From Candidatus Sulfidibacterium hydrothermale (GTDB lineage Bacteria; Bacteroidota; Bacteroidia; Bacteroidales; F082), in assembly GCF_020149915.1 (NCBI RefSeq), contig NZ_CP083760.1, positions 2,418,001-2,482,000 on the forward strand: DNA of 64,000 nt, in the 5' to 3' direction. Numbering within the stretch: position 1 is the first letter of the stretch; each line of letters opens with the position of its first letter. The translations under genes and the position numbers were made by a program. This document shows positions 12,931-63,256 of the stretch, one piece after another. The notes beneath the pieces are model-generated. The model was given only the letters and a program-made list of their open reading frames with translations, had not been told where the DNA came from and made no database searches.

Positions 12931-12935
12931 AAAGA

Positions 12936-12971: not shown

Positions 12972-12993
12972 GCTTACAAAGCTTCTATAAACA

Positions 12994-41893: not shown

Positions 41894-42715
41894 ATGGTCA
41901 TTACCGGAAATACAAAGATTTCAAAAATCATAAAGCAAGACAAAAATGTGATTGATGTCATTGCTTCAATCAATAAGCATTTTCGCAAGTTAAAAAATCC
42001 GATATTGTGTAAAATGCTGGCTTCGCGCGTAAGCGTAGCCGACGCCGCCCGGATTGGCGGAATCAGCACAGAAGAATTTCTGAAAAAATTACAACAACAC
42101 GGCTACGCCGTGCAATTTTCGGATTACCCTGAAAATGAAGAAGTAAAAAATACGAACCATAATTCTTTAACCGATAAAAAAGTGATGGACAAAACAAATA
42201 TTGTAACCCTGGACGCTCGTCCCATACTGGCCAAAGGCATTGATCCGTTTGACGACATCATGAAGACACTTAAAAGTATGAATGACGATCAAACCCTTTT
42301 GATCATTAATACTTTTGAGCCCATTCCGATTTTGAATATCCTGAAAAAACGGGGATATGAATACGAAACGGAACGTCCCGAACCGGGCGTGGTTCATACC
42401 TATCTGCAAAAAGCCGGGAAGCCGGAAGACGGCAAAACAATTACCGAAATTCATACTTCAAAAGAAGATGATTTTGAATCGGTTGAAAAACGTTTCGACG
42501 GAAAAATGAGAGAAATTGATGTGCGCAACATGGAAATGCCCATGCCTATGGTAACCGTTTTGGAAGAGCTGGAAAAACTCTCGCCGGGAGAAGCCCTGTA
42601 CGTTCACCATAAACGGCTGCCCCAATACCTTTTACCCGAACTGGAAAACCGCGGTTTTCAACTGGTTCAAAAGCCTGTTAACGAAGAGAATTTAAAACTT
42701 ATTATCTACAAATAA
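41894..42715 (+). CDS. DUF1858-DUF2249-DUF2249 protein
   Basis: A 273-residue soluble protein. Residues about 1-75 resemble DUF1858 (NKHFRKLKNPILCKMLASRVSVADAARIGG). Two TusA-like DUF2249 domains follow: DARPILAKGIDPFDDIMKTL near 110-180 and DVRNMEMPMPMVTVLEELEKL near 213-270. DUF2249/DUF1858 proteins often travel with nitric-oxide and nitrosative-stress genes and with Rrf2 regulators. Its stop overlaps the next start by one base. The biochemical role is unknown. Confidence 0.82.
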   Translation: MVITGNTKISKIIKQDKNVIDVIASINKHFRKLKNPILCKMLASRVSVADAARIGGISTEEFLKKLQQHGYAVQFSDYPENEEVKNTNHNSLTDKKVMDKTNIVTLDARPILAKGIDPFDDIMKTLKSMNDDQTLLIINTFEPIPILNILKKRGYEYETERPEPGVVHTYLQKAGKPEDGKTITEIHTSKEDDFESVEKRFDGKMREIDVRNMEMPMPMVTVLEELEKLSPGEALYVHHKRLPQYLLPELENRGFQLVQKPVNEENLKLIIYK

Positions 42716-44025: not shown

Positions 44026-44344
44026 CATTCATCATCTGACAGAAAAAGAGAAAGAGATTGCAGAATTATTAAAAACCGTTATTGACCCGGAAGTAGCCGT
44101 TAACATTATCGACTTGGGTCTGGTTTATGAAATTGATTATAACGAAGAAGAAAAAACCATTAAAGTGGTCATGACACTTTCCACACGGGGCTGTCCGCTG
44201 GGCGATACCATCATGCAAAACGTGGAAGTGGTCCTGCAATCGAACTATCCCGATTTTAAAATCGAAGTAGAGTTGGTTTGGGAACCCATGTGGTCACCTG
44301 AAATGATCACAGAAGCCGGACGCCAGGCTATTGAGGGTTTTTAA
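44018..44344 (+). CDS. DUF59/MIP18-type metal-sulfur cluster assembly factor
   Basis: A 108-residue SufT/PaaD-like protein with LKTVIDPEVAVNIIDLGLVYEI at the start and the conserved Cys in STRGCPLGDTIM near residue 57. Such proteins help load or repair Fe-S clusters. It overlaps the NnrS-like gene by 8 nt and precedes an Fe-S regulator, consistent with repair of clusters damaged by NO. Confidence 0.9.
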   Translation: MSDIHHLTEKEKEIAELLKTVIDPEVAVNIIDLGLVYEIDYNEEEKTIKVVMTLSTRGCPLGDTIMQNVEVVLQSNYPDFKIEVELVWEPMWSPEMITEAGRQAIEGF

Positions 44345-44393
44345 GATCATAAAAAAATAATTCTAACATCAAGGTGATTTAAAAACGGAAAAG

Positions 44394-44852
44394 ATGTTTT
44401 TCTCCAAACCTACAGAATACGCGATCAGGGCCATGGTTTATCTCTCGGTTTATGCTTCGGAAGAAAAGAAGCTGGGGCTGAAACAAATGGCCCAGGATCT
44501 GGAGTTTCCGGAGCATTACCTGGGGAAAGTATTGCAAGACCTTACCAAAAAACATCTGATCCGTTCAGCCAAAGGTCCGCACGGTGGTTTTTACATGGAA
44601 GAAAAAGATCTCGACATTAGCCTGTTGGCCATTATTGATGCGCTGGAAGGATTACAGTTTTTCAACACCTGCGGACTGGGGCTTCACGAATGCAATGAAG
44701 AACGCCCCTGCCCTATCCATAAAGATTATCAGATTGTCCGGGGAAATTTCTTTAAAATCCTTTCGGAAAAAACCATCCGGCAGATGCGCGAAGATTTAAA
44801 AAATGAAGTAGCATTTATGGATTTTTACCGGGCAGAAAAAGAAAACGAATAA
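44394..44852 (+). CDS. Rrf2-family transcriptional regulator (NsrR/IscR-like)
   Basis: A 152-residue winged-helix regulator starting MFFSKPTEYAIRAMVYLS. Three cysteines, C93, C100 and C106 (CX6CX5C in CGLGLHECNEERPC), are placed to bind an Fe-S cluster as in NsrR and IscR. With NO-linked neighbours on both sides it is likely a NO or Fe-S sensor that controls this cluster and perhaps the nos genes. It lies 49 nt after the DUF59 gene and converges on the nos locus with a 5-nt gap. Confidence 0.88.
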   Translation: MFFSKPTEYAIRAMVYLSVYASEEKKLGLKQMAQDLEFPEHYLGKVLQDLTKKHLIRSAKGPHGGFYMEEKDLDISLLAIIDALEGLQFFNTCGLGLHECNEERPCPIHKDYQIVRGNFFKILSEKTIRQMREDLKNEVAFMDFYRAEKENE

Positions 44853-45475: not shown

Positions 45476-46429
45476 TTATTGAGCAATATGACGTTCAGTA
45501 ATAACCCCGGTAATTTTATCATCTTTCAGCAACTTTTTCAGTTCTGCCGGAATATTTTTAGCCTCTTTAAAAATGGTATTTCGCATTTCGGCACCATAAA
45601 AATTACAGCCTTCGAGGTCTGCCCCGGTAAAATTGGCTTCCTGCAAATGGGCACCACCAAAATTCACCCGCTTTAAAATGGCATTTTTAAAACTGGCGCC
45701 TTCCAGTCCGGCCCCGGTAAAATCAGAACCGGTCAGAATACAATCGTCAAATCGGGATTGGGTAAGCACGCCCCGTATAAAACGGGTGTGAATTGCTATG
45801 GAATGGCTAAAATCAGCATGGGTAAACTCCACATCTTTCATCAGGGCATTGGTAAAATTACAATACCGCAACGAAGCCCGGTGTCCGGTCATTCCAAACA
45901 TATTGGCCCCCTGAAAATCGGAGCTGTCCAGCCGTGAATCCGTCACATGGTCATGAAAAAGCTTTGCCTGGCTAAAATCACAATGTTCAAGTAACGAACG
46001 GTCAAAAAGTGTCCAGCGGATATCAGCAGCCCTGAAATCGGAATAACTAAAATTACTTTCGCTGCATTTAGCCGAACGCATACTGGCTCCGCGGAAATCA
46101 CCTTCTTCCACATGTACACCGTTCCAGTACACTTTATCCAACATGGCACGGCGAAAATCGTCGCCGTTTTGCGGTACCGGCTTAATGCCTTTGGCCCGGA
46201 CTTTTCCGCTGCGCCGCGTGGTCTTTATGGAAACAATGCTGTCGATTTCATGCGGGCTTAAAAAATTGGCCACTTTTTTCATCACAACAGGTCCATTCTT
46301 CCCGTCCGGCCGGACAGCGGACATACTTTTTGTCGATGTCTTTTGCTGCTCTTTTGAAGCCTGATTTCCACAAGCCACAAGTCCAAAAAACAAAACGATC
46401 ACCGGTACTATTCGAACAAAACGTATCAT
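45476..46429 (-). CDS. Pentapeptide-repeat lipoprotein
   Basis: A 317-residue exported protein starting MIRFVRIVPV with a lipobox (FGLVACGN), so probably a lipoprotein. From about residue 90 to 300 it is made of pentapeptide repeats of the A(D/N)F/LxG kind (SDFRAADI, ANFTGADLEGCNFYGAEM), which fold into a right-handed quadrilateral beta-helix. It follows nosY by 23 nt. Function is unknown; the beta-helix form recalls NosD in architecture but not in sequence. Confidence 0.83.
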   Translation of the reverse strand: MIRFVRIVPVIVLFFGLVACGNQASKEQQKTSTKSMSAVRPDGKNGPVVMKKVANFLSPHEIDSIVSIKTTRRSGKVRAKGIKPVPQNGDDFRRAMLDKVYWNGVHVEEGDFRGASMRSAKCSESNFSYSDFRAADIRWTLFDRSLLEHCDFSQAKLFHDHVTDSRLDSSDFQGANMFGMTGHRASLRYCNFTNALMKDVEFTHADFSHSIAIHTRFIRGVLTQSRFDDCILTGSDFTGAGLEGASFKNAILKRVNFGGAHLQEANFTGADLEGCNFYGAEMRNTIFKEAKNIPAELKKLLKDDKITGVITERHIAQ

Positions 46430-46452
46430 CTGAACTGCAATAATCAAAAAAA

Positions 46453-47283
46453 TTAAATAATATCTTTCCGGTTAAACCGGCGATTTCCGAGCCATCCAAA
46501 CAAAAAGCCCAGCAGCGTAGGATAAAGCACAGAAAAAACAATAAAGGTACCCCGGCTTACCGTATCCAGTATAAAATAAGCAGCAGCTCCCATTACGGTC
46601 AGTTTTGGATCAAAAAGAACCAGAACGCCCACCCTGAAAACCTGCAACGGATTCAGCATTCCCAATCCGATAACAACGTTAGGGCTGACCCGAAGTTTCA
46701 GCAACATTCCCATCAGTAAGAGATCAATAAAAGCCACCAGCATCAGCCAAAGCACAAAAGCAGTACTCACTGCCATTTCCTGCGAACGGGCATAAACAGA
46801 AATAAACATGCCGATTCCGAGAAAGCAGAAAACCATGGCCGCCAGCAAAAAGCTGTACAAAGCAAACATATCCCAGGGAATGTCAAGATTGGTAACGGAT
46901 CCCCAAATTACCGCTCCGGTAAGCGAAACCAATAACGGGATATAAATCACAATAAATTTGGCAAAAAACTTTCCCCAGTAAAAATCGCTCAAAGAAACGG
47001 GTAACGAGAGCATATATTCCATTACATTACTCTCCTTGTCGCCTACAATAGAGCGCACCACGGTTATCAAAACATAGATAGGGATAATCACCATACAAAC
47101 CTGCATAAAGGTAACCATCAGGCGCCCTAACCCCACGAAGCCGATAATTTGCGTTTCGGTAATTCCCGAAACAAACATAAAGGCCACAAATCCGCCAAAT
47201 AAAATGCTGTATATCCAAAAACCCTTACTTCTCAGACTTTGGTTCAAATCCAGAACCAAAATCGACTTCAAACCTTTTGCCAT
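46453..47283 (-). CDS. nosY: NosY, permease of the copper-sulfur ABC transporter for NosZ
   Basis: A 276-residue ABC-2-type permease with six helices starting MAKGLKSILVLDLNQSLRSKGF. NosY with NosF and NosD supplies sulfur for the CuZ cluster of nitrous-oxide reductase. The block GDKESNVMEYMLSLPVSLSDFYWGKF near residues 80-105 is typical. Eleven upstream in-frame codons are not conserved and are excluded. It lies between nosL and the pentapeptide lipoprotein. Confidence 0.88.
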   Translation of the reverse strand: MAKGLKSILVLDLNQSLRSKGFWIYSILFGGFVAFMFVSGITETQIIGFVGLGRLMVTFMQVCMVIIPIYVLITVVRSIVGDKESNVMEYMLSLPVSLSDFYWGKFFAKFIVIYIPLLVSLTGAVIWGSVTNLDIPWDMFALYSFLLAAMVFCFLGIGMFISVYARSQEMAVSTAFVLWLMLVAFIDLLLMGMLLKLRVSPNVVIGLGMLNPLQVFRVGVLVLFDPKLTVMGAAAYFILDTVSRGTFIVFSVLYPTLLGFLFGWLGNRRFNRKDII

Positions 47284-47346
47284 ATTTTTTCTGTTACTTA
47301 TCGGGAGAACCTGCAAAAAAAGAAAACCAACGAGAAATCGTTCTCG

Positions 47347-47835
47347 TTATTTTTTCTTCATTCCTTTTCCCATCATTTTATGTTCTTTCAAAAACTCTTC
47401 ACGCATGGTTTTCCCTTCATCAATCCGTTTAAACATCTGCTGAAAAGTATACGTGGAATCATTGGGCTGTGCCACAGCACTGTAACCATATCCCATGGGC
47501 GTATGTTTTCCGAAGTTGTAATAGGCTTTTTCGGCATCTAACCATTTGCCTTTATGTTCGCTGTCGCCTACCCAGATTTGTACTTTTTTTCCTCCGGTAA
47601 ATTTTTTCCAATCGGGACTTTTCATGTATTCATGCAGACATCCGATATCATCAAACCACAGCACATCGCCATACGAATTAATGGCCTGAACAGCATATTC
47701 CTGATCAGCAATTCCCATCAGGCACTGGGCACAAATATCCCGGTCGTAATTAATCTTACGGGGAGAGAAATCAGGAGCATGACTACAAGAAGCCAAAAAC
47801 AACAAAACAATCGGAAGAAACATAAATTTTTTCAT
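47347..47835 (-). CDS. nosL: NosL, copper-binding lipoprotein
   Basis: A 162-residue lipoprotein: signal with lipobox LASC at Cys17. The NosL copper site CAQCLM is at C35, C38 and M40, and GDVLWFDDIGCLHEYM follows. NosL delivers Cu(I) to NosD/NosZ during CuZ assembly. The C-terminus is Met/Lys-rich (HKMMGKGMKKK), perhaps additional copper ligands. It is 4 nt after nosF. Confidence 0.93.
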   Translation of the reverse strand: MKKFMFLPIVLLFLASCSHAPDFSPRKINYDRDICAQCLMGIADQEYAVQAINSYGDVLWFDDIGCLHEYMKSPDWKKFTGGKKVQIWVGDSEHKGKWLDAEKAYYNFGKHTPMGYGYSAVAQPNDSTYTFQQMFKRIDEGKTMREEFLKEHKMMGKGMKKK

Positions 47836-47839
47836 CTTT

Positions 47840-48517
47840 TTAATTTTTTAAAGGTTCTAAAATCTTATCTAAAACAATTTTTCCAAAATCCATTTCTACC
47901 ACCCGGTTTACCAAACCGGATATTTCAGACATCCGGTGGCTGCTCAAAACCAAAAGCGCTTCTTTGTTATACCGGCTGAGGTAGTCAAAAAATATTTCCC
48001 GGGCAGCCGGATCGAGGTTGGCAGAAGGTTCATCCATCAGCAAAATAGCCGGTTTTTTACCTAATGCAAACGAAACCAGCAACTTCTGCTTCATACCACC
48101 AGATAAAGCCACAAAAGGCTTATTGTAACTGTCGGCAATTTTCAGCCCCAGTTTTTCGGCAATATCCACATATTCATCTTGCGAGGTATGGCTTAAATCG
48201 GAAAAAAACCGCAACAATTCTTTCACTGTAATTTTCAGTGGCGGAGGAATTTGCGGAACAAACCCCACTTCTTTCAGAATTTCCACCCGATGCTGGCGGG
48301 GGCTTTTATTCAGTACTTCAAGACTTCCGTCAAAAACATACTGTCCTAAAATACAACGAATCAATGTTGTTTTTCCGGCACCATTCTGTCCGATCAGGGC
48401 AATCCGGTCGCCTTCATTAAAATCAACGGACAACTCTTTCAAAACGTTTACTTTATTGAAAGATTTGCTCAATCCTCTTGCCCGGATCACCGGCTGATTA
48501 TTTTCTTTCTCCATCAT
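47840..48517 (-). CDS. nosF: NosF, ABC ATPase for NosZ maturation
   Basis: A 225-residue ABC ATPase. Walker A GQNGAGKTT at 43-50, signature ALSGGMKQK near 138-146, Walker B AILLMDEPSANLDP near 157-170. It energises NosDFY. Its start overlaps the end of nosH by 4 nt and its stop is 4 nt before nosL, so these genes are one transcript. Confidence 0.92.
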   Translation of the reverse strand: MMEKENNQPVIRARGLSKSFNKVNVLKELSVDFNEGDRIALIGQNGAGKTTLIRCILGQYVFDGSLEVLNKSPRQHRVEILKEVGFVPQIPPPLKITVKELLRFFSDLSHTSQDEYVDIAEKLGLKIADSYNKPFVALSGGMKQKLLVSFALGKKPAILLMDEPSANLDPAAREIFFDYLSRYNKEALLVLSSHRMSEISGLVNRVVEMDFGKIVLDKILEPLKN

Positions 48518-49458
48518 AAAATTCTGTCAAAACCTTTAACTGTATAACTCAAGGCATTTCCCGGACAAATATCAATACACAATCCGCAACGGGTACAATC
48601 TGCTCCCACATCATGGCGTTTGCTGGTCGCTTTTCCCCGTTCAACAAACCAAAGCTCATGCGGAACAAGGCATACGGTCTGACAATCAAGGCAATGCGCA
48701 CATTTATCCAGATCAAATTTCACGGCAAGTGGCGAAAGTTGTCCGACCATACTGTAAGTGGCTCCGATAGGACAAACATACCGACACCAAAACCGCTTGC
48801 TGTAAACAATTTCAAAAACAATCAGCACTAAAATCCACAACAGAATCAGTCCCGGGCCGTAAATCATGGCACGCGAGAGAATACCTACCGGATTTAAATC
48901 TTCAAAAACCAGGTTCTGCGTAAGCAAAGCCAGCAAAAGAAAACCTGCCCAAAAAACATAACGCAAATACCGGTTGTAGGTATGTTCTTTAATTTTTTTC
49001 TTTTTCACCAGATAATTATGCAGCTTTTCGCCCCATTCGGCCAGGAAATGATAGGGGCAAATCCAGGAACAGAAAGAGCGTCCGCCCATCAAAAAGTAAA
49101 AGATAAAAATGGTACTGGCTCCAATAACAAAGTTCATGGTCAGATGCACCCAGTGGCCGGTATAAAACGAAATCACCAGCTGTTGTAAAGTATTAAACGG
49201 ATCCATCAGATAAAAACCGATAAGTCGTGAGCCGCTTAAGGAACCTTCCAACATGGAAAGGTCAAACATAAAAGAGAGAACAAACAAGCCATTAATGGCA
49301 ATCAGCACTGTCCAGCGGATGGTACGCCATTTATGTCGCCCACCGAATTTTTCACGCCACTCTTTAAAGCTCAAACCTGCTTTGGTATAAGGCATCTCTT
49401 CCTTGCTCTTCACCGGCAGAGGTGTTTTATTCTTTTTTCCAAACATAAGGCTAAGCAT
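48514..49458 (-). CDS. nosH: NosH, NapH-type membrane ferredoxin
   Basis: A 314-residue protein with four or five helices and cysteines on both sides of the membrane. FCSWICPYHFLAEWG and CRYVCPIGATYS are NapH/NosR CxxxCP motifs; two [4Fe-4S] sites follow, CAHCLDCQTVC and CTRCGLCIDICP. NosGH pass electrons from menaquinol to the periplasm in clade II nos systems, replacing NosR. It overlaps nosG by 8 nt. Confidence 0.88.
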   Translation of the reverse strand: MLSLMFGKKNKTPLPVKSKEEMPYTKAGLSFKEWREKFGGRHKWRTIRWTVLIAINGLFVLSFMFDLSMLEGSLSGSRLIGFYLMDPFNTLQQLVISFYTGHWVHLTMNFVIGASTIFIFYFLMGGRSFCSWICPYHFLAEWGEKLHNYLVKKKKIKEHTYNRYLRYVFWAGFLLLALLTQNLVFEDLNPVGILSRAMIYGPGLILLWILVLIVFEIVYSKRFWCRYVCPIGATYSMVGQLSPLAVKFDLDKCAHCLDCQTVCLVPHELWFVERGKATSKRHDVGADCTRCGLCIDICPGNALSYTVKGFDRIL

Positions 49459-50278
49459 TTACAGGTTTAACAACAATGCTGGGTTCTTCGGTCGGACAAA
49501 CCATCACACATACGCCACAGCCCACACAACCGTCGAGCACCTTCGGGCGATAAGACACAGAACCATCCGGGCGGGTTTGTTTATCCAGCACAATGGCTTC
49601 ATCACCCATCGGACACTCTTTTACACAGATATCGCAAATTTTTTCGTCATACTGTTTATCCCGCAATGGAGTTGCTTTCGGGGAATCTCCGTAAGGAGAC
49701 CGGTTAACGCCTTTGAAATCTTTCCCGCGGGGAGTTCCTTTAAATCCTTTTCCGAGAACAGCAAGACAGGTTTTGTCATTTACCTCTGCCACCCCCATTT
49801 TTACCTGCCGTTTCATGGCTTTTATCTGAACCGGAAACGGATTATAATTGGGGTCGGCTTTATGCGTTTTGTCATATTGTTCAATGGCTTTTTCCCCTGC
49901 ATTTTTAAACGGAATAAAATAGAGGGCAGCTGTCGGACAAGTTTCCACACATTGAATGGAATCACAGGAGAGATCGCAGGCCTGCTCACGGGCATCGATA
50001 TAAGGCGTTCCATAAGCCAGCCCGTCTTTGATTCCGGCAAATTTAATGGCTTTCACCGGGCAAATCTGGATACACAGGCCACATTTAATACAAGCATAAA
50101 TAAAAGTTGTTTCGTCAATTGCTCCCGGAGGTCTCAGAAATTTTTGGTTTACCCGTTTTTCGGTAGTTACTTTTTGCAAGTACCCTACCCCGACACCCAC
50201 GGCAGCCATAGCGCCCACCGCAATGGCACTTGATTTGAGAAACTGACGGCGGTTAAGTCCATCGGTTTGTCTTTTCAT
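49451..50278 (-). CDS. nosG: NosG, NapG-type Tat-exported ferredoxin
   Basis: A 275-residue periplasmic ferredoxin. A twin-arginine signal RRQFLK at residues 10-15 starts the protein. Four [4Fe-4S] motifs follow: CIKCGLCIQICP, CDSIQCVETCP, CDICVKECP and CVGCGVCVMVCP. It works with NosH in quinol oxidation. The gene has its own -7 box, 53 nt upstream. Confidence 0.9.
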   Translation of the reverse strand: MKRQTDGLNRRQFLKSSAIAVGAMAAVGVGVGYLQKVTTEKRVNQKFLRPPGAIDETTFIYACIKCGLCIQICPVKAIKFAGIKDGLAYGTPYIDAREQACDLSCDSIQCVETCPTAALYFIPFKNAGEKAIEQYDKTHKADPNYNPFPVQIKAMKRQVKMGVAEVNDKTCLAVLGKGFKGTPRGKDFKGVNRSPYGDSPKATPLRDKQYDEKICDICVKECPMGDEAIVLDKQTRPDGSVSYRPKVLDGCVGCGVCVMVCPTEEPSIVVKPVNA

Positions 50279-50359: not shown

Positions 50360-51157
50360 CTATTTTTTGAAGAATTTTTTTAAGGCAATATGTGCTGAAC
50401 CAATCGCGGTAGTAAATTGGGGGTGAGGATGAATATAAATTTTTCGCATTAACTCGTTTTCCAGGGCATCGACCATGCCTTTGTTCAGGGCTGTTCCACC
50501 GTCAAACAAAACATCGTCTTCGATGCGTCCGCGGGCAGCCAAACGGGCAATCCGCCGGGCAATGGAATAATGGATTCCGGAAACAATTTCATTGACCTGG
50601 TGACCGGCGGCAAGCAAGGATATAATTTCAGACTCGGCAAAAACGGCGCACGTGCTGTTAACCGGCAAAGGAGAATCTTTGGCTTCAAAATGCAAGCCTT
50701 CCATCTCTACGATATCCACTTCGAGATTACGGGCAGCAATATCCAAAAAACGGCCGGTACCTGCTGCACATTTGTCATTCATTACAAAGTTTTTGATATC
50801 TCCGTTTTCATCGAGCAGAATCACTTTGGTATCCTGTCCGCCCACATTGATAATGGTTCGAATTTTAACGCCTTCCTGCTGGTAAGCCCTTGCTCCTACA
50901 GCGTTCGCTGTCAACTCATTGACATTTTCGTCACTTCCTTTGAACAATTTTCTTCCATAACCGGTAGAAACCGTGTAAGCAATATCTTCTTTTTGGATAT
51001 GATTTCGAAAAAGCAACAAATCCAACGCATCCACTGCATTTTGATTAAACCGGCTTCCGGTAGGCGAAGCGCCTTTGGCCACCAGTTCTTTTTCTTCGTT
51101 GATAATGGCAATTTTTATGGTTGTCGATCCAATATCTATTCCTACAAAATACTTCAT
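50360..51157 (-). CDS. HgdC/BcrA-type ATPase, activator of a double-cubane cluster protein
   Basis: A 265-residue actin-fold ATPase of the BadF/BadG/HgdC family. GIDIGSTTIKIAI is at 6-18 and NVGGQDTKVI near 104-113. C130 (NDKCAAGTG) and C170 (NSTCAVFAESE) match the two cysteines that bridge one [4Fe-4S] cluster across the homodimer in HgdC. The protein injects low-potential electrons into its partner with ATP hydrolysis. The partner is encoded 12 nt upstream. A 2-hydroxyacyl-CoA dehydratase role is unlikely because there is no second dehydratase subunit. Confidence 0.9.
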   Translation of the reverse strand: MKYFVGIDIGSTTIKIAIINEEKELVAKGASPTGSRFNQNAVDALDLLLFRNHIQKEDIAYTVSTGYGRKLFKGSDENVNELTANAVGARAYQQEGVKIRTIINVGGQDTKVILLDENGDIKNFVMNDKCAAGTGRFLDIAARNLEVDIVEMEGLHFEAKDSPLPVNSTCAVFAESEIISLLAAGHQVNEIVSGIHYSIARRIARLAARGRIEDDVLFDGGTALNKGMVDALENELMRKIYIHPHPQFTTAIGSAHIALKKFFKK

Positions 51158-51169
51158 CTCTCTCTGCTG

Positions 51170-52441
51170 CTATTTTTTATTTTTCAATGAATCAAGAAAC
51201 GCTTCCAGGCGGGTGGTAAGCTGCCCGAAGTCATCCGGATTGTAATCCGATTCAATAAACAGGGTAGATACCCCCAGACTCTCTACAAAATTTCCTACCG
51301 TCCGCGATTCCATATCGTACAACTGACAACCGGTAAAAGTCTGATAAATTACCCCGTCCACTTTAAAATCTTCAATTCCTTTGGCAATTTTTCTTTTTCT
51401 GTCGTCGTTCGGACTAAAATTAGGGCAAGTACTGGGTTTCAGGTACCTGTCGGCTACGGCAGGAATCATATCATACAAAAACCATTCGTCCACCGCCACG
51501 GTATCCCAAATCATCCGGCTGGTAGAACAAAACTCTTCATAAACCACCACTCCACCCAGTTCTTCAATTAAAACAGGAAGTTTTACATTGGGGAAAATGC
51601 TGGGCGAACCCGTTAAAAGAATACGGGGAGAATGGGCCTTTCCGACATAAACTTTTTGTTCTATCCGTTTTTCAAGCTCATCGTTGAGTTCTGATAATTT
51701 TTGTGTCCACCGCTCAATATCATCAAAAAAATAGGCATTGGTCACCAGAATGGCATCTTTACCGTAAATAACCGGGGCTGTTTTTCTGATTTGATTAAAC
51801 CGGCGATATTCGGCTTGTGCTTTCGCCACCATTTTAATGGCTCTTTTCAGGCTCCGGCGTGTAATTTTATTTCCGGTAACCGATTCCAGTTTTTTTACAA
51901 ATTTTTTAATCACCCGGTGCCAGTAACGGCGGGCTTCTTCCGTATCTTTAGTAGGGGGAACTTCAAGCAGATAAAGTGGTTTACCCAGTTCATCCCCCAT
52001 TTCGCCCATTTTTTTCTTTTGGTCGCAGGTAGCCGGATTTACAATGAGAACAGGGTCAATATTACCGGGTAAAATATCAAGATAGATGGCCCCTAAAGTT
52101 GATTTTACCATCGGACAGGTTTTCGCCGGCAAAAACTCGGTTCCAATCTGGTCCATCGAATAAGCGCCGGAGCAAATACGCACCGGCACTGCTCCCACGG
52201 CGTAAATCAATTCGAGCGGAACATGAATACACATGGAAGCCACCACCTTTTTTCCCTGATAAGAAGTATCATCACCACTGAGAAACTTTTCGTAACGATC
52301 GTAGAAATAATTCATTCCTTGCGGGTTATCGGGAAATTTATCCACCATCTCCGCAAGGTTTCGCTTAATTTCCATGGAGTAATGAATACTCCCTGTTTTT
52401 CTCATCCGCTCGTACCGGTCTTTACTCACAGTATGTTGCAT
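51170..52441 (-). CDS. HgdB-family protein, probable double-cubane cluster reductase (DCCP-like)
   Basis: A 423-residue protein of the 2-hydroxyacyl-CoA dehydratase D-component fold. It has seven cysteines: C71, C90, C109, C139, C305, C339 and C372. Two-subunit dehydratases carry about three cluster cysteines per subunit, whereas the single-subunit double-cubane proteins carry six for an [Fe8S9] cluster; this gene fits the latter. The only enzyme studied in that group (from Carboxydothermus) reduces small molecules such as acetylene with ATP and its activator. It lies 3 nt after a membrane ferredoxin. The physiological substrate is unknown. Confidence 0.85.
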   Translation of the reverse strand: MQHTVSKDRYERMRKTGSIHYSMEIKRNLAEMVDKFPDNPQGMNYFYDRYEKFLSGDDTSYQGKKVVASMCIHVPLELIYAVGAVPVRICSGAYSMDQIGTEFLPAKTCPMVKSTLGAIYLDILPGNIDPVLIVNPATCDQKKKMGEMGDELGKPLYLLEVPPTKDTEEARRYWHRVIKKFVKKLESVTGNKITRRSLKRAIKMVAKAQAEYRRFNQIRKTAPVIYGKDAILVTNAYFFDDIERWTQKLSELNDELEKRIEQKVYVGKAHSPRILLTGSPSIFPNVKLPVLIEELGGVVVYEEFCSTSRMIWDTVAVDEWFLYDMIPAVADRYLKPSTCPNFSPNDDRKRKIAKGIEDFKVDGVIYQTFTGCQLYDMESRTVGNFVESLGVSTLFIESDYNPDDFGQLTTRLEAFLDSLKNKK

Positions 52442-52444
52442 ACT

Positions 52445-53470
52445 TTATTTTTTTGATTGCTCCGACGGCAGTTCTTTGGAATCGCCGGCCGGATTATAAC
52501 GTTTAAAAAAGCCTTCTTCTGTAGATGTGAAAATTTTAAAATTCAATACTTTTACGTTCAGGCAATCCTCTTCCGGACAAGCTTCCACGCATTTAAAACA
52601 CATCATACAATTATCGGTCACCACATTCACACTGGTAATATCTTCTGCAATGGATAAAATACCCATATCGCAAACCCGTGAGCAGTTTCCGCAGCGGGTA
52701 CATTTATCCCCCACTTTCGTCAAACGCAAAATCCCGATCTTAGAAAACAGGTATTGCAGCGCACTCATGGGACAGAAAAAACAAAAGAAACGTTTTTTTA
52801 CAAACGACCCCACAAAAAACAGTGCCAAAATAATAATGGCAAGCGACGACATCACAATGGTTACCGTACTGGAAAAATTAATACTCAACTGGGATGTGTC
52901 CCCCGAAAAAAGCGGCAAAATAATCCGTGCCGGACAAATTTGACAAAACGGCGTATGTAAATCATGCGAAAGTTTGGGCAAGCCAAAAAACGAGTTGGAA
53001 ATTGCCAGGGGAATAAGGAAAAGCAAGGCCAATAAAACATATTTTATCCAGCTAAGCTTTTTAAAACTTTTCTCATCATACTGTCCACCTCTGATTCCCA
53101 AACGTTTACGAAGCATAGTGATCCAATCCTGGATGGTTCCCAACGGACAAAGAAATCCACACCAGGCTTTATTAAAAATAATAAAGAACAAGACAAAGGA
53201 GAGCAACGAAGTTAAGAATCCCACACCCCGCCAGCTGAATAGCGCCGAAAAAGAGGTATGCATCCGGTGCTGAACAGACATCAGAAAACAGGTTCCGGGA
53301 CTGCCCGGATTGTACGGACAGGCAAAAGTGGGAAGATTTTGCCCTACCTGTATGAGAAAATAACTGCCATAAACAAACAAAATAAATGCGATAATCTGTA
53401 TCCAGAAACGAAACCGGGATACATTACCATTGTTTACCCACCTTCTGATTTTACTTATTTTCGTTTTCAT
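52445..53470 (-). CDS. NapH/NosR-type membrane polyferredoxin next to the DCCP pair
   Basis: A 341-residue protein starting MKTKISKIRRWVNNGN. About five helices; CxxxCP motifs CGFLCPLGTIQDW near 115 and CFFCPMSALQYL near 235; then two ferredoxin sites CTRCGNCSRVC and CMMCFKCVEAC. It is a second member of the NosH/NosR C-terminal family in this operon. It ends 3 nt before the HgdB-family gene, so it may feed that reductase instead of NosZ. Its start overlaps the previous gene by 20 nt. Confidence 0.85.
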   Translation of the reverse strand: MKTKISKIRRWVNNGNVSRFRFWIQIIAFILFVYGSYFLIQVGQNLPTFACPYNPGSPGTCFLMSVQHRMHTSFSALFSWRGVGFLTSLLSFVLFFIIFNKAWCGFLCPLGTIQDWITMLRKRLGIRGGQYDEKSFKKLSWIKYVLLALLFLIPLAISNSFFGLPKLSHDLHTPFCQICPARIILPLFSGDTSQLSINFSSTVTIVMSSLAIIILALFFVGSFVKKRFFCFFCPMSALQYLFSKIGILRLTKVGDKCTRCGNCSRVCDMGILSIAEDITSVNVVTDNCMMCFKCVEACPEEDCLNVKVLNFKIFTSTEEGFFKRYNPAGDSKELPSEQSKK

Positions 53471-54464
53471 CAAAAATATATTCTTTATAAGGTTTCTTTC
53501 TCCGTTCACGGTATACAAAAACACCAATACTGATTATCACCAAGGATATGATAAAGATAATAAGTCCCCATACCATTGACTGGTACATGGTTCTCGACGG
53601 GAAATATCCGTCAGACATAGAGGTAACATAATGTACATAACGATAATTCTTTCCCCGAAAAGTACCGGTTTGTTCTTTGGTAAATTCAGAAAAGATCATA
53701 TAGGAATAAATCTTACGCCCCCGGATTTCGCTCCATTTTGAAAAATAATCCTGAATAAACTGAAATGTCGCTTCGCCTTTGCGGTTGGTCATTTTCCGGT
53801 TTACCCATCCCTTTTCTGTACTCAACACAATCGGTATTCCAGCCACCGGTTTCCCCTGATACATCGGCTTATAAGTAAACTTGTCGCCTGATGCGATAAA
53901 GAAATGGAAATTTTCGTTTATGTGACGTTCTCTGACAATTTCGAACGGAATTTTTTCCGGAAAAATTCTCGGAAGAACCGCTTTTCGCACATTAGGATGG
54001 CCGTTACGGCAGCTATGGCTCAGCAACTCGGCCTTAGCAATATTTACGTACAGCGTGTCCCCCGAAAGCTGTTTAATCACAAGATAAACATTCCAATAAC
54101 CTTCTGCGTTATCCACATATTCTACCACACTTTTCCCTTTTATGTTCAGGATTTTTGATTTCACCCGTTTATTTTTGGGAGAAAACACAAAAGTCTGTTT
54201 ATCCAGACTGTCAGGGAGCGACAAGTAAGCAGCATGCTCAACAGAAATTCCCCGGCGAACCCATTGAATCACCCGGATCGGGCCTCCCCTGCCGCGGTGC
54301 CTTTTCATGGTGCAAAGCCGATGCATTCCATACGTTGAAACTTCTTTTCTTAAACGGCCGGGCGGTACATTCGATAACCAAACAGGAGATTCCTGTGCAT
54401 TTACAGCCAAGGCCAATAAAAGCAACCACAAAAAATATCCTCCGGTAATTGTAAACCTTTTCAT
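53451..54464 (-). CDS. Secreted, C-terminally membrane-anchored protein of unknown function
   Basis: A 337-residue protein with a signal peptide (MKRFTITGGYFLWLLLLALAVNAQ) and one C-terminal helix near residues 295-320 followed by a short charged tail. The middle part has a beta-rich segment (GDKFTYKPMYQGKPVAGIPIVLST ... TNRKGEATFQFI) that resembles the DUF4198/CnaB-like domains of periplasmic metal-uptake proteins. It starts 82 nt after the TonB receptor gene and overlaps the polyferredoxin gene. Not recognised by name; a role in copper handling is a guess from context. Confidence 0.7.
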   Translation of the reverse strand: MKRFTITGGYFLWLLLLALAVNAQESPVWLSNVPPGRLRKEVSTYGMHRLCTMKRHRGRGGPIRVIQWVRRGISVEHAAYLSLPDSLDKQTFVFSPKNKRVKSKILNIKGKSVVEYVDNAEGYWNVYLVIKQLSGDTLYVNIAKAELLSHSCRNGHPNVRKAVLPRIFPEKIPFEIVRERHINENFHFFIASGDKFTYKPMYQGKPVAGIPIVLSTEKGWVNRKMTNRKGEATFQFIQDYFSKWSEIRGRKIYSYMIFSEFTKEQTGTFRGKNYRYVHYVTSMSDGYFPSRTMYQSMVWGLIIFIISLVIISIGVFVYRERRKKPYKEYIFDENENK

Positions 54465-54546
54465 AGGGCAACTGCTTCTTGTGAATAAACAAAGATATTG
54501 CAATACCTGCTTCTGGGTATCGCAATATCTTTATTTTTTATTTAAA

Positions 54547-56820
54547 TTAAAAATGATATCCGACAGATAAGACATAATTAACAGGCCAACCTGGTGAATA
54601 ATACTGATACCAAACCGTTTGGTGGGTAACATAATCGTATCGTTTACCGGCATACGCCCAGGTAGCATAATTCACATCAAAAATATTATTCACTGCCAGT
54701 GAAGCTGTAAATTTCTTATAACGGTAATTTACTTTTGCATTCACAAGAGAATGGCCAGGATATTTAAAATGGTCATAGTTATCCATGTAATATGCGTCAA
54801 TAAACTGATAATCAACCGTAAAACTCAAGCCAAAATCAAAGGCATACGTTGCTCCGGCCGAAAACATATTGTGCGGCGTTTTCCGGAGCTGGTTTCCGAT
54901 AAGCGTAGTATCCGGATTGTCTATAAAAGTAGCATTCAGATAAGAATAAGCCAGAAAAGCCGTGAACTTTCTCTTGTAATGATACCGGAGCGACACTTCC
55001 ACCCCATCATGACGAGTATTTCCGATATTGATATAAGTAGCCGGATAACCATCCGAAACAATCTGATCGGTAAAATCCATCCGGAATACGGAAACCTGAT
55101 AATGGATCGCATTTTTCCACAAATTTCCCCGGACACCAATTTCATAATTCGTCAGATATTCTGGTTTCAAATCAGGATTCGGGATCACGTAAGTACTGGT
55201 AAAAAGCTGTGAAATCTGAGGCGGATTAAATCCTCTTGAAATATTTCCAAATACCGTCAGATTTTCAAGCGGATTGTAGGCAAATCCGAATTTCGGACTA
55301 AAGTTGGTTAAGCTGGAAGTTCCGCTGGTATTATCATCTCCGGTATGGAAATTATCTTCCCAGTCATAACCAATATAGTCAAACCGCAGACCAAAAGTCA
55401 GGTCGAGGCGTTCCTGAAACAGGCTTACCCGGTCTTCGGCATAAATTCCCAGCATGTCATAAGTACTTTTTCCGGCCCAAATCAAGCTACCGATAACCCC
55501 TGTTTCACCATCACGGGAATAAGTATGGTTATCATCGGTTTGCCGGTCGAAACTGGTACCTACAACAAAATAATTTTTGGCACTCGAAATTTTAGAAACC
55601 AGTTTATAGCGAACTTCTCCACCATACATTCTCACATTATCTTCTCCCCATTTGGTATCAAGGTAGTGTCCGGTGGTATTTCTGCCACTAAAATAACTAT
55701 TAACGAAAAGATCACTTTTTTCTCCAAATTGTTTATCATAATGAAGGTTGAAGCGATAAATTTCATTGGTCCATCCGGTAAATTTCCGGGTAGCTACGCG
55801 TGATCTTTCCACAAACTGAATACTATCTAACGGACCACCACTCTGGGATGTATCTTTAGTATAATCACCGGTAAATTGTAATTTGCCCATTTTCCCAAAG
55901 TCCTGAATCAATTTAATACCGGCTCTTCCGGAGGTATATTCGGTACGATCCTGGTAGCCATCGGTATGGTAGTAACCGGCTTTGGCAAGGTAGCGGAAAT
56001 TTCCTTTACCCCCATTTACATCCCCGCTAAATTTCTGAAAATTATAAGAGCCGTAAGACCCGTTAATATCTCCATGAAACCCTTCTTCCGGACTTTTTTC
56101 AATGATATTGATCACACCGGTAATTCCATTTGGTCCATACAATGCCGAAACCGGTCCTTTTAACACTTCAATTTTTTCGGCATGATCCATATCCACCCCT
56201 TCAAACAAGGTTCGTCCTGAGGCTTCGGTAATAGGAACACCGTCCACCAAAACCAAAATACCCCGGGTGATATATGTATGCAATCCCACACCACGGAAAC
56301 TAATCACGTTGGATTCACCATGACGCCGGTCTTCAGTAAACACACCGGGAATAGACAACATGGCTTCCCCCACATTCCGGCGCTCCGTGGTCAGATCAAT
56401 TGATTTTTTATCGATCACATACACCGGAGAACTGACGGTTCTTACCGTTTGTGGAATTTTTGTAGCGGAGATCTCCACTTCATCAAAAGTAATGGAAGTC
56501 ATTTCCATTTTAATATTCAAAGTGGTCACTTCGCCGGCTTTCACTTTTACATCTTCAAAATGTTTCGGAAAATAACCCAATAATTTAGCTTCTACAGCAT
56601 GTCTTCCGGCCGGAACATTTTTAATTACATAATGACCTTTACTATCACTCACGCCTCCCAGTTTCAGATGATGGATATAAACTTCCACACGGGCAAGCGG
56701 TTTGCCGGTATTGGCATCAGTTACCGTCCCTTTGATCATGCCTGTATTCTGGCCAGACACTGTCATCCCTGTCAGCGTAAACAAGACAAGAAAAAATAAC
56801 TGAAAGTAAATCTTTTTCAT
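54547..56820 (-). CDS. TonB-dependent outer-membrane receptor of the nos locus
   Basis: A 757-residue receptor. Signal peptide, then a carboxypeptidase-regulatory-like N-domain (GMIKGTVTDANTGKPLARVEVYIH near 28-51), a plug domain (VGEAMLSIPGVF, IEVLKGPVSALYGPNGITGVINII) and a 22-strand barrel ending in VLSVGYHF with the terminal Phe. NosA/OprC in pseudomonads are TonB-type copper receptors needed for NosZ; this one may do the same, but the ligand cannot be read from sequence. It opens a tightly packed series of genes down to YceI. Confidence 0.88.
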   Translation of the reverse strand: MKKIYFQLFFLVLFTLTGMTVSGQNTGMIKGTVTDANTGKPLARVEVYIHHLKLGGVSDSKGHYVIKNVPAGRHAVEAKLLGYFPKHFEDVKVKAGEVTTLNIKMEMTSITFDEVEISATKIPQTVRTVSSPVYVIDKKSIDLTTERRNVGEAMLSIPGVFTEDRRHGESNVISFRGVGLHTYITRGILVLVDGVPITEASGRTLFEGVDMDHAEKIEVLKGPVSALYGPNGITGVINIIEKSPEEGFHGDINGSYGSYNFQKFSGDVNGGKGNFRYLAKAGYYHTDGYQDRTEYTSGRAGIKLIQDFGKMGKLQFTGDYTKDTSQSGGPLDSIQFVERSRVATRKFTGWTNEIYRFNLHYDKQFGEKSDLFVNSYFSGRNTTGHYLDTKWGEDNVRMYGGEVRYKLVSKISSAKNYFVVGTSFDRQTDDNHTYSRDGETGVIGSLIWAGKSTYDMLGIYAEDRVSLFQERLDLTFGLRFDYIGYDWEDNFHTGDDNTSGTSSLTNFSPKFGFAYNPLENLTVFGNISRGFNPPQISQLFTSTYVIPNPDLKPEYLTNYEIGVRGNLWKNAIHYQVSVFRMDFTDQIVSDGYPATYINIGNTRHDGVEVSLRYHYKRKFTAFLAYSYLNATFIDNPDTTLIGNQLRKTPHNMFSAGATYAFDFGLSFTVDYQFIDAYYMDNYDHFKYPGHSLVNAKVNYRYKKFTASLAVNNIFDVNYATWAYAGKRYDYVTHQTVWYQYYSPGWPVNYVLSVGYHF

Positions 56821-57465
56821 AAATCCTTTTCCTTTTAATGATTAACCATAAAAACGTAATTTAACCTTTAACGTATTTTTTTCCTGTTTCTTTCAAAAAA
56901 ACAAAATAATTTTCCAATTAAAATAAAAACTTAATCCCAATGTTAAAACTAATTTGCGGTTCATGCAGGATACAAGGCTGAACAATAAGTGCTATTCAAG
57001 TAAATAATCGCCATAATAACCACAATAAAAAAGTTTTATTGTTGGCAAATAAAACACAGGACAAGTTTTGAATGTTCTTGTTCAATTTCTCCGGTAAGAA
57101 TGTACACAGCCCACCTGCAACCATTACTGCCGTATATTCAACATAATCTGGCACACAGCGGCTCGTGTACATTCAAGGTACTTTTATACTCCATTGTGAG
57201 AAAAACCACTTTCATTTATAAACCTAACAAATTACATGATGTTACGAGAATTACTTACGAACCACATTGTTATGCGGCATCCGATTGTTATCGTAAATAA
57301 ACCTGTTGTTTTAAAAAGATACCGAAGTTCTACAGCCCTTTCGCTGCTTAAAATAACTTCCACACATCTTTTCCTTGCCTTACAAGCAAGGACACAACAC
57401 AGTTTACACGTAAATTGTTAACCAATGGAAGTAAAAAGCCCGGGAAATAATAATACCGGAGAAAA
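56821..57465. other. 645-nt gene-free region upstream of the TonB receptor
   Basis: AT-rich sequence with no credible gene on either strand. It contains short inverted repeats such as CCTTGC...GCAAGG near 57375-57395 and repeated GTACA/TGTAC words. I searched for TAnnTTTG and found no match on the minus strand, so if the receptor has its own promoter it departs from the consensus. No B12-type box was seen. Confidence 0.5.
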
Positions 57466-57873
57466 TTATGCCCGGGAATTGGGCGGTGGAATCAATACTT
57501 TAAGATACCGCTCAGGAAGCGGATCGGCATAACTATAGAAATGTAAAGGAATTCCTTCTGCCAGGAATTGTAAATGAAAGGTTCCCGATACCAGATAAAT
57601 CATATTACTCACCTCATTATTTGTTGTCGGAGGTGGGTTCTGGTTTTTAGTGGTCGCACTATTTTTATCACCGGCACTTTTCAACAGCGCACTCAAATAG
57701 GCCATATCACCGGTTTTAGTATGATCACCATTGGAATAATTCTTATCTTTTGTATTGGCGAAATAAGCGTGGGAAGAGCTAAAAAAATAATAATGCAAAA
57801 GCGGATAAGAAGGCAAAATCAGGAATGCCAGGTACAGCAGTAAAAACGATATGGATATTGCCTTCCGAATCAT
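57466..57873 (-). CDS. Small one-helix protein upstream of the TonB receptor
   Basis: A 135-residue protein with an N-terminal hydrophobic segment (SISFLLLYLAFLILPSYPLLHYYFF) and a hydrophilic remainder rich in Asn, Lys and Thr, ending PPPNSRA. It resembles in plan the short proteins with a Leu-rich N-terminus often found just before copper- or heme-type TonB receptors in Bacteroidota. No function can be given. It follows nosD by 51 nt. Confidence 0.6.
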   Translation of the reverse strand: MIRKAISISFLLLYLAFLILPSYPLLHYYFFSSSHAYFANTKDKNYSNGDHTKTGDMAYLSALLKSAGDKNSATTKNQNPPPTTNNEVSNMIYLVSGTFHLQFLAEGIPLHFYSYADPLPERYLKVLIPPPNSRA

Positions 57874-57924: not shown

Positions 57925-59313
57925 TTACCGCACGGGTGTAAACGTATCATTTTTTGGCCATCGAAACACCGGTTTTTTGTCTTCCAGTACAAATTTAGGT
58001 TTGGAAAAGGGAGCCAGCCGGTTTAAAAAGTCCAATACAGCCAAAATCGGGGCACCATAGAAGAACCGCATATACCGGTCAAAATCCCATAAATGGCCAG
58101 AATAAGAAAGCAAAATGTACGGAATATCTCCTATGTTATCATCATTACGGTCAAATCCCTGATAATCATCCCAATAATTATTATCCCACACATTAAAACG
58201 GGCCGTTGTTACCTCTGGATAAACCTGGGTTAAGTTATTATGAAAATAGTTGTGCTTAAAAAGATTGCCCTCCTGATTGGTATGGAAATAGATGGCCGTA
58301 CCACAAAAAGCAATCTCATTATGTTCAATGGTATTTTTTTGTTCCAGCACGTAAGGCGACACATCTACATGGATACCTTCGGTACAATAAATAAACCGGT
58401 TATTCAGGATCTGGTTGGAGGAGGTTTCTTTCATCCCCAGCGCCATGCCACTCCCAATGTGATTGTCTTTGATCAGATTTCCGGTCATAATGGTGCGTTC
58501 GCTGTACATCAGGAAAACTCCTACCGAGTTGTTAATAAGTACATTATTTTGTATCCGGTTATTGTGCGAATACATAAAATGGATTCCATAACGGTTTCCG
58601 ATTCCTTTATTTCCCTGAAAAAGATTCTCTGCCGAGTACCAAACCACCATGTCACGCACATGATGCCAATAATTTCCACGAATGATATTAAATTTGGAAT
58701 ACCACAACCGGATAGCATCGCCTTTAATGGCTTTAGGCCGGTGCAACAGAGAAGTGATTTCGTTGTGAATGATCCGGTTATGATTACACTGCCAGATATC
58801 TACACCAAACAAAACATCTTCGATACGGCAATTTTCAATAACATTATAATCCCCTTTCAAACGAACACCGGAATCCAGCTTATCAAAAGATCCGCCAGAA
58901 TGCCGGATTACAACATTTTTAACGGTTACACTATCCGCATTAATAAAAATCACCGAAGTTTTCCCCAAGCCGTCGATTATTGCTTTTCCCTGGCCGTCAA
59001 TTACCAGCCCGTCGGTTGAAATCTCTACCGGTCCGGTATAAACTGCCGGTTTCAACAGGATGTGCTGTCCCGGCTCCGCATTATCAATAATCGGTTGCAA
59101 CGGAATAGAATCGTAACCGGTGGTCGTCAGGTCATACTGCGTAAGGGTTCCGTAAACCGGTTGTTCGGTCTGTCCCCGTCCATTTGCCGGCCATCCGAAA
59201 ATCAAAAAGGCCATCAGCAAAGAAGCATAAAAAGCAAAACCGGAAAGATTCCGATAAGCCATTCTGCTTCGTTTTCCTTCCGGTTTTGCTTTCATAGAAA
59301 AAAGATTTTTCAA
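57925..59313 (-). CDS. nosD: NosD, parallel beta-helix protein for NosZ maturation
   Basis: A 462-residue periplasmic protein. After the N-terminal hydrophobic segment (about 26-44) there are right-handed beta-helix (CASH/PbH1) repeats: VRLKGDYNVIENCRIEDVLFGVD, RYGIHFMYSHNNRIQNNV and so on to about residue 385, ending with NVWDNNYWDDYQGFD. NosD receives copper from NosL and sulfur via NosFY to build CuZ. A second Met at codon 7 is an alternative start. Confidence 0.93.
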   Translation of the reverse strand: MKNLFSMKAKPEGKRSRMAYRNLSGFAFYASLLMAFLIFGWPANGRGQTEQPVYGTLTQYDLTTTGYDSIPLQPIIDNAEPGQHILLKPAVYTGPVEISTDGLVIDGQGKAIIDGLGKTSVIFINADSVTVKNVVIRHSGGSFDKLDSGVRLKGDYNVIENCRIEDVLFGVDIWQCNHNRIIHNEITSLLHRPKAIKGDAIRLWYSKFNIIRGNYWHHVRDMVVWYSAENLFQGNKGIGNRYGIHFMYSHNNRIQNNVLINNSVGVFLMYSERTIMTGNLIKDNHIGSGMALGMKETSSNQILNNRFIYCTEGIHVDVSPYVLEQKNTIEHNEIAFCGTAIYFHTNQEGNLFKHNYFHNNLTQVYPEVTTARFNVWDNNYWDDYQGFDRNDDNIGDIPYILLSYSGHLWDFDRYMRFFYGAPILAVLDFLNRLAPFSKPKFVLEDKKPVFRWPKNDTFTPVR

Positions 59314-63220: not shown

Positions 63221-63256
63221 AATACTCAATATTATAAATTTAAAAAATTACGATTT

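Follow-up and report, generated by a model that had tools for sequence, protein, structure and literature searches.

A double-cubane reductase pair in a nos operon belongs to a five-gene cassette that may serve ATP-boosted reductive metal uptake

The window analysed here is a stretch of 64,000 nucleotides from the single-contig, 3.27 Mb genome of Candidatus Sulfidibacterium hydrothermale (NZ_CP083760.1, positions 2,418,001 to 2,482,000), and our subject is a gene pair in its nos operon, HgdB and HgdC, predicted to encode a double-cubane iron-sulfur protein and its ATPase activator. In 47 related loci the pair forms part of a cassette with a TonB receptor, a membrane-anchored protein (p350) and a membrane polyferredoxin (FeS_mem). 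We put forward, with about even confidence, that these five genes constitute an ATP-boosted reductive uptake system for a metal, most likely copper, which settled in the slot of the nos operon that the receptor OprC/NosA fills in some relatives. The proposal starts from the gene set, its conserved ligands, its co-occurrence across genomes, the OprC genes in the slot of relatives, a remnant of such a gene in the window and the fusion of some cassette proteins to NosL. The role suggested for the pair would shift from an enzyme of nitrous oxide (N2O) respiration to a metal-uptake cassette serving N2O reducers among others.

A five-gene cassette inside the nos operon

NosZ (63229) opens a run of minus-strand genes that ends at 44858 with a YceI-like gene, and the cassette lies within it between NosD and NosG. 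The features are, in order of transcription:

60830..63229, minus strand: NosZ, the CuZ-bearing half with a fused cytochrome c (TIGR04246, 678.4 bits)
57925..59313, minus strand: NosD, upstream border of the slot (TIGR04247)
57466..57873, minus strand: p135, a small protein that precedes the OprC slot in relatives (locus comparison)
56921..56974, minus strand: remnant of an OprC/NosA-type receptor, the last 18 codons and stop (alignment to OprC ends)
54547..56820, minus strand: TonB-dependent receptor of the cassette, 757 residues, no cysteine, not OprC-like (Pfam TonB barrel and plug)
53451..54503, minus strand: p350, with signal peptide, predicted periplasmic domain of DUF4198 fold, HSCRNGH motif and C-terminal membrane helix (AlphaFold and fold comparison)
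52445..53527, minus strand: FeS_mem, membrane polyferredoxin with 16 invariant cysteines (alignment, model)
51170..52441, minus strand: HgdB, predicted double-cubane (DCCP-type) reductase, 423 residues (NF040772, ligands, tree)
50360..51157, minus strand: HgdC, predicted ATPase activator, 265 residues, bridging-cluster cysteines C130 and C170 (TIGR00241, 1hux)
49451..50278, minus strand: NosG, downstream border of the slot (profile matches, locus comparison)
45476..49458, minus strand: NosH, NosF, NosL, NosY and a pentapeptide-repeat protein, the remaining nos operon

HgdB and HgdC are open reading frames exactly where the initial annotation had placed them, with 12 bp between them and 81 bp between the end of HgdC and NosG; the likely starts of p350 and FeS_mem are at 54464 and 53470. 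The pair had been described as packed between ferredoxin genes of the nos locus. This holds downstream, where NosG follows, but the second iron-sulfur gene, FeS_mem, which precedes HgdB, is not a nos gene, since it travels with HgdBC and has four cysteines that the NosH of the window lacks. Similarly, taking HgdB and HgdC as the unit captured a real pair but overlooked the larger set formed with the receptor, p350 and FeS_mem upstream.

A scan of 84,980 species genomes with HgdB yielded the 47 loci, in 46 other genomes; it required exact short peptides, and so more distant members were missed. Counting those above 40% identity, FeS_mem lies upstream of HgdB in 43 of the 47 loci and p350 in 41, and HgdC follows HgdB in 45, all of the misses falling at contig ends. 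The TonB receptor is found upstream in 33 loci, and 13 of the 14 misses have less than 4.3 kb of upstream DNA. Carriers belong to the Bacteroidota, Campylobacterota, Pseudomonadota and Desulfobulbaceae, and the cassette is mostly distant from nos genes; an annotated example resides on plasmid NZ_CP087125 of Sulfurovum mangrovi, and Desulfurivibrio sp. AMeS2 is another named organism that has it. A membrane protein of the DsbD_2 family is a frequent addition in proteobacterial and campylobacterial loci (20 loci; PF13386 in the two scanned), and a dedicated ExbB, ExbD or TonB gene is present in 6 to 7 loci each. Two receptor-p350-FeS_mem sets stand beside a single HgdBC in L097 and L110, as read, and three genomes (G359, G471, G482) have two FeS_mem matches with one HgdB match each. 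FeS_mem matches in G447, G368, G284 and G381 contain internal stop codons and may be decayed copies or edge effects. RND (resistance-nodulation-division) efflux genes occur near the cassette in 12 loci, mostly of Campylobacterota (L050, L054, L059, L096, L104), where chelator or metal export is possible. At the Rfam gathering score no riboswitch was found upstream of the receptor in the window or in seven loci (six of the 47 and L098).

The Campylobacterales provide additional clues on how the cassette is composed. Among 199 genomes sampled, FeS_mem at 48% identity or above occurs in 16, and all 16 belong to the 17 genomes that carry this HgdB subfamily (42-49% identity); in the seventeenth carrier, G290 (the genome of L070), a contig edge lies inside HgdB. 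Eleven further genomes have other double-cubane proteins (34-36%) and no such FeS_mem, and five more have FeS_mem-like proteins at 34-37%. The loci of these last five (L105-L109) represent a sister module, which in the four with sufficient DNA is composed of a receptor, a small periplasmic protein that has histidines close to its start, FeS_mem and a DsbD_2-type protein. ExbB is present in two of the four, L108 is cut by a contig end, and the small protein has weak DUF4198 matches in three of four, all below the cut-off. Neither HgdB nor HgdC is present in any of these loci as read. Since such a module exists without them, HgdBC looks, on gene content, like a part added to a base module.

Identity of the cassette proteins

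HgdB matches PF06050 (E 5.7e-94) and HgdC PF01869 (E 1.9e-58). The latter scores 230.2 bits against TIGR00241 (cut-off 125.4) and aligns with solved activators (1hux, E 9.2e-55); the two bridging cysteines assigned to it at the outset, C130 and C170, align with 1hux and are kept in all 37 aligned rows. HgdB passes the DCCP model of NCBIfam, NF040772, narrowly (353.6 bits, cut-off 350), and its closest solved relatives by sequence are 7yyl (E 5e-68) and 6eno (E 1e-67), the latter being the double-cubane protein DCCP (PMC11971306). Its seven cysteines are present as first listed (71, 90, 109, 139, 305, 339, 372) and are cysteine wherever a row has a residue (42 to 44 of 44 aligned rows). C71, C109, C139, C305, C339 and C372 align with the six ligands of the [8Fe-9S] cluster of BzdN (C36, 73, 100, 263, 293, 327; PMC11971306), so that all six are kept, and C90 is a seventh, invariant within the cassette group. 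The alignments include the window and exclude fragments (44 rows for HgdB, 37 for HgdC, 35 for FeS_mem).

HgdB is a single HGD-D subunit with an adjoining activator and no second HGD-D gene beside it. The branching pattern of a tree of 61 rows, midpoint-rooted, with some very long branches and with the same two proteins entered twice as L002 and L003, groups the window HgdB with HgdBs from cassettes (12 rows, support 98/97); the remaining DCCPs in the tree, YjiM among them, make up a separate group of 7 rows (100/100). Since the deepest forks are open, it is only likely that all cassette HgdBs represent one clade. The NF040772 match, the ligands and the tree bear out the initial annotation in reading the pair as a DCCP-type single-subunit reductase with its activator and not as a dehydratase: judged by sequence, HgdB is a single-subunit double-cubane protein and HgdC its ATPase activator, both of known kinds.

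The 16 cysteines of FeS_mem, invariant in 35 rows, comprise eight of ferredoxin type, four near the membrane with CX3CP pairs common to NosH (hence 12 shared with NosH), and four others, 70, 80, 195 and 198. These last, together with H87, are invariant, absent from the NosH of the window and kept in the sister proteins that lack HgdBC. Against the NapH/MauN model TIGR02163 the protein scores 73.4 bits, below the NCBIfam cut-off of 213.05. A structural model built from 25 of the 35 sequences, with a predicted local distance difference test (pLDDT) value of 71.5, places the four cysteines and H87 in two loops between four long helices, opposite the ferredoxin part. This four-cysteine site is presumed to face the periplasm, because of the helix order in the model and of positive loops judged by eye.

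The window p350 has no Pfam match at E 1e-3, and a p350 profile has no match among PDB sequences at E 1. Its model (pLDDT 85.3, from 20 of 41 sequences) has the fold of Zcp (Z score 19.0, root-mean-square deviation 2.8 over 204 residues, 10% identity), which has been solved with copper, zinc and cobalt bound; a nickel-bound DUF4198 protein, 9gcb, comes second (Z score 15.7), and the next rows drop to 5.8. The gathering score of DUF4198 (PF10670, 34) is not reached by p350, the best relative scanned scoring 31.6 bits. The motif HSCRNGH is found in Bacteroidota-type rows and a similar one in L038, L039, L055 and L056, and a pattern match in L050 seems to lie inside the ferredoxin part. Many Pseudomonadota rows have Met- or His-rich stretches or tails. 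The p350 proteins of Campylobacterota are fusions with a polyferredoxin, and some of them also include a NosL domain (PF05573, cut-off 24), which was detected in four of seven p350 relatives scanned (L053, L058, L066, L099; 49.1-60.0 bits, E 4e-16 to 1e-12).

Under the proposed mechanism, the TonB receptor would import a metal complex into the periplasm, where p350, anchored in the membrane, would hold the metal. On the cytoplasmic side, ATP hydrolysis by HgdC would drive electrons into the [8Fe-9S] cluster of HgdB, which would hand them at very low potential to FeS_mem. The clusters of the latter would lead from the cytoplasmic ferredoxin sites through the membrane to the periplasmic four-cysteine site. 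There the complex, of copper or iron, would be reduced, and the metal might be freed as Cu(I) and passed to NosL/NosDFY and NosZ.

The OprC slot and the link with NosZ

Support for copper comes from the genomic location. Two nos operons of the same order without HgdB (L117, L119) have a lone TonB receptor between NosD-p135 and NosG; the six best solved relatives of these receptors are OprC (E 7e-38 and 2e-32), and both have CxxxM and HxM motifs like the OprC copper site (motif as given in PMC8610252). In L032 and L034 the gene order is NosD, p135, OprC, the five-gene cassette and NosG, and the HgdB of L032 is 93% identical. The window genome has no OprC receptor at E 1e-30 or better. Its cassette receptor has no cysteine and lacks the copper-site motifs, and OprC is absent from its 44 PDB matches. 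Nevertheless, the end of an OprC-type gene, 18 codons with the stop, survives in the 645 bp between p135 and this receptor (56921-56974), 55.6% to the L032 OprC, with none of 150 shuffles as good. We considered whether this might be the end signal of any barrel and rejected the idea: it reaches BLOSUM scores of 46-64 against three OprC ends, no more than 26 against 54 other receptor ends and -1 against the cassette receptor of the window. Some relatives have OprC in the slot and the window retains a remnant of it, so that here the cassette is what remains in the copper-import slot. A parallel is seen in the genus of G248, where strong OprC matches (E 1e-80 or better, a line drawn afterwards) occur in none of three cassette genomes versus 20 of 26 cassette-less NosZ genomes (p 0.02, from drafts; the Fisher figures given here ignore kinship and draft-genome gaps). 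Small proteins of 125-135 residues precede TonB receptors in Bacteroidota, in the OprC slot and elsewhere, without a Pfam match in the two scanned (57466-57873 in the window; 4729-5106, 12745-13122 and 17225-17602 in L028).

Co-occurrence with NosZ points in the same direction. A search of the 46 cassette genomes (L072 belongs to the genome of L069) gave 32 NosZ matches at 1e-40, 26 of them over the model cut-off: 12 of 13 Bacteroidota-type genomes (one titled Calditrichota), 14 of 16 Campylobacterota, six of 15 Pseudomonadota and neither of the two Desulfobulbaceae. The Bacteroidota-type figure compares with 13 of 246 genomes in the order of the window, a comparison that mixes families and is only indicative. 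Neighbours were read at 51 loci (the 47 with L002, L003, L005 and L006), nos genes being detected only if window-like. The initial annotation had looked to a survey of gene neighbourhoods for recurrence of the pair with nos genes, and such recurrence was found: six of 14 Bacteroidota-type genomes, including this one, have cassette and nos genes on one contig (the window genome, L032, L034, L037, L069, L125). The cassette of L037 faces the end of a nos operon, that of L069 has nosY upstream, and in L125 p350 and the receptor lie beside tandem nosZ, with HgdB on another contig of the same genome. The other eight show no nos gene in the DNA read around the cassette, some contigs being short, and among Campylobacterota loci only L059 has window-like nos genes (nosF, L and Y, about 7 kb off). 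HgdB occurs in only one of 199 genomes of a Flavobacteriaceae sample; in the genus of G248, with NosZ in 29 of 38 genomes, the three that have HgdB are all NosZ-positive, too few to tell.

Overall, the OprC slot, the remnant, the NosL fusion, the Met- or His-rich tails of p350 and the frequency of NosZ favour copper, which is probably the imported metal. Among the functions offered at first, copper supply survives best, though not as a function specific to NosZ. Genes of the heme-copper oxidase family are present in all 52 cassette genomes searched but lend no support, because they are expected of most such bacteria.

Two features of the surrounding nos region were also observed. The N2O reductase appears split, if the columns are those we take to be CuZ and CuA ligands: NosZ (60830-63229) keeps seven CuZ histidine columns, has lost the CuA ligands and has a cytochrome c domain, and its tandem NosZ-like neighbour (63257-64000, on to 2483368 of the genome, G000) has lost all CuZ histidines and keeps the CuA cysteines and histidines. 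The same pattern is found in G247, and a partial neighbour in G199 keeps one of three CuZ columns covered. Beside the nos operon, a divergent group at 41894-44852, kept in L032, encodes a DUF1858/DUF2249/TusA protein, a membrane protein with a weak COX1 match and two small proteins, presumably a metal-sulfur assembly factor and an Rrf2-type regulator.

Alternative explanations

Several observations weigh against copper uptake as proposed here. The solved proteins nearest to the cassette receptor, YncD/PqqU, are no copper receptor, one locus (L039) truly has no TonB receptor within 10 kb, and the NosL domain was not found in three of the seven p350 relatives scanned (L054, L041, L104). OprC and the cassette occur together in seven of 14 cassette genomes (strong matches), against 28 of 39 NosZ genomes without the cassette, a difference that is not significant over these 53 genomes (p 0.19) and that reads 10 of 14 versus 30 of 39 at 1e-30. 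Furthermore, L118 does not have the OprC-slot arrangement, and in the HgdB-less L121 and the cassette genomes L122-L125 NosD is followed by NosG with no receptor between. The link with NosZ in Campylobacterales is not significant either (10 of 17 carriers versus 70 of 182, Fisher p 0.12), and sites resembling those of Fur, FNR, CsoR, CueR, NtrC and Zur show no excess over shuffles in 28 upstream regions. The contact between HgdB and FeS_mem is a guess, the confidence of the FeS_mem model being only 71.5. The weak point is energetic: Cu(II) reduction normally needs no such low potential, and that of ferric catecholates would. Copper that is tightly chelated or sulfide-bound in anoxic habitats might be the reason for the driving force, but this is a guess.

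This leads to the most serious alternative, that the same machine works on iron. A ferric siderophore with Fe(III) beyond the reach of ordinary reductases would be imported, HgdBC would supply the low potential, and the position in the nos operon would merely reflect that both use one anaerobic promoter. A need for ATP would follow from the very negative potentials of ferric catecholates. Moreover, the cassette receptor comes near the siderophore-receptor model TIGR01783 (211.7 bits, cut-off 223.5), genes for NifU and a NifS-like (class-V) aminotransferase adjoin the cassette of L056 and the sister module of L108, and operons with a proposed role in reducing Fe(III) in the periplasm also contain DUF4198 proteins (PMC11870441). 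Iron leaves unexplained the NosL domain fused to p350 in some relatives, the OprC slot with its loss of OprC, the presence of NosZ in nearly all other Bacteroidota-type cassette genomes and the want of a Fur-box excess. Ferric siderophores explain the low potential better than copper does and the genome context worse, and we consider this scenario possible but rather doubtful.

In another scenario, HgdBC might reduce a small substrate in the cytoplasm (N2O, a nitrogen oxide, polysulfide or an imported organic ligand), with FeS_mem as electron donor and the receptor importing the substrate. DCCP reduces acetylene, hydrazine and azide, with unclear physiological relevance (PMC11971306); HgdC requires a donor of low potential, and ferredoxin sites are present in FeS_mem. 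What remains unexplained are the invariant FeS_mem cysteines on the presumed periplasmic side, the related FeS_mem/receptor set without HgdBC and the NosL fusion, and we reckon that a quinol-fed FeS_mem could not reach the required potential without coupling to the proton motive force. Reduction of a small nitrogen or sulfur compound, as first suggested, accounts for little of the partner genes, and we regard a substrate of this kind as unlikely.

Reductive activation of NosZ (CuZ) by HgdBC, in the way that the activation complex of methyl-coenzyme M reductase (MCR) acts on F430, is less probable still. It has this precedent of ATP-driven metalloenzyme activation via complex iron-sulfur clusters (PMC12176620) and the position of the cassette inside a nos operon in its favor. 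Yet 14 of the 46 cassette genomes have no NosZ match, which does not support the NosZ-specific role suggested at the outset. Most of the 14 are incomplete drafts, and one (G289) has nosY beside its cassette, but G386 and G392, with cassette contigs longer than 2.2 Mb, apparently lack NosZ. Of the 17 Campylobacterales carriers, seven have no NosZ match. NosZ is moreover periplasmic, and most NosZ genomes do without this HgdB: it is missing from 70 of the 80 sampled in Campylobacterales and from 26 of the 29 known in the genus of G248. Activation of NosZ survives only as a secondary role. Finally, that HgdB is an ordinary two-subunit 2-hydroxyacyl-CoA dehydratase or benzoyl-CoA reductase with its second subunit elsewhere in the genome is hardly credible: the Pfam families are identical and the genome has two further HGD-D genes, but these are paired some 128 kb away beside their own HgdC-type activator and are set apart from HgdB in the tree by very long branches, HgdB retains every one of the six [8Fe-9S] ligands, no second HGD-D gene was seen across the 47 loci, and HgdB does not show the heterodimeric make-up that defines 2-hydroxyacyl-CoA dehydratases and class I benzoyl-CoA reductases.

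Relation to known systems and significance

The cassette combines elements with precedents of their own. The DCCP of Carboxydothermus with its reductase (6eno, 7yyl; NF040772) and E. coli YjiM/YjiL resemble HgdB/HgdC in the single HGD-D subunit, the six ligands and the adjoining ATPase. The other DCCPs compared are only about 30-36% identical to the window HgdB and form the separate group in the tree, and E. coli yjiM has no TonB receptor, p350 or FeS_mem partner in the 4.1 kb read around it. OprC/NosA shares with the cassette receptor the operon slot, in some relatives, and TonB-dependent import across the outer membrane; the cassette receptor differs in having no cysteine, no CxxxM site and reductase genes of its own. 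Pairs of a TonB receptor and a PepSY_TM protein (CrtA for copper, FoxB for ferrioxamine iron) join outer-membrane import of a metal chelate to a proposed inner-membrane reductase (PMC12914433); in the cassette a polyferredoxin would take the place of this reductase and would receive its electrons from an ATP-driven double-cubane protein. The cupric reductase CcoG, a membrane protein with [4Fe-4S] clusters and an Ig-like domain in the periplasm, takes part in copper reduction (PMC7558416), and FeS_mem is likened to it from this description and not by sequence; CcoG is not known to have an ATP-driven donor. The MCR activation complex likewise uses ATP and complex iron-sulfur clusters to activate a metal centre, but with different proteins (an ABC-type A2, McrC, Mmp7, Mmp17, Mmp3) and on a cytoplasmic target (PMC12176620).

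Searches of the open-access literature found no report joining double-cubane or hydroxyacyl-/hydroxyglutaryl-CoA dehydratase proteins with nos genes, N2O or TonB receptors, and pairing polyferredoxin, TonB-dependent receptor and dehydratase activase gave only reports judged unrelated by title or abstract. The gene families are known and their combination is absent from the literature searched; the ATP-driven double-cubane donor is what would be new. PMC11971306 describes the function of double-cubane proteins in biology as unknown. More tentatively than the uptake system itself, we suggest that the natural role of one double-cubane lineage may be that of a transmembrane, ATP-driven booster which acts through a polyferredoxin to strip copper from imported complexes, and that in this organism it replaced OprC/NosA. 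One lineage with fixed partners suggests a testable job, which could be the first natural role for the family.

N2O has its main biological sink in NosZ, a copper enzyme. If our reading is true, costly and dedicated metal scavenging would alter the view of copper-limited N2O reduction in sediments, groundwater and vents, and N2O respiration in low-copper, sulfidic places would depend in part on nitrogenase-like chemistry.

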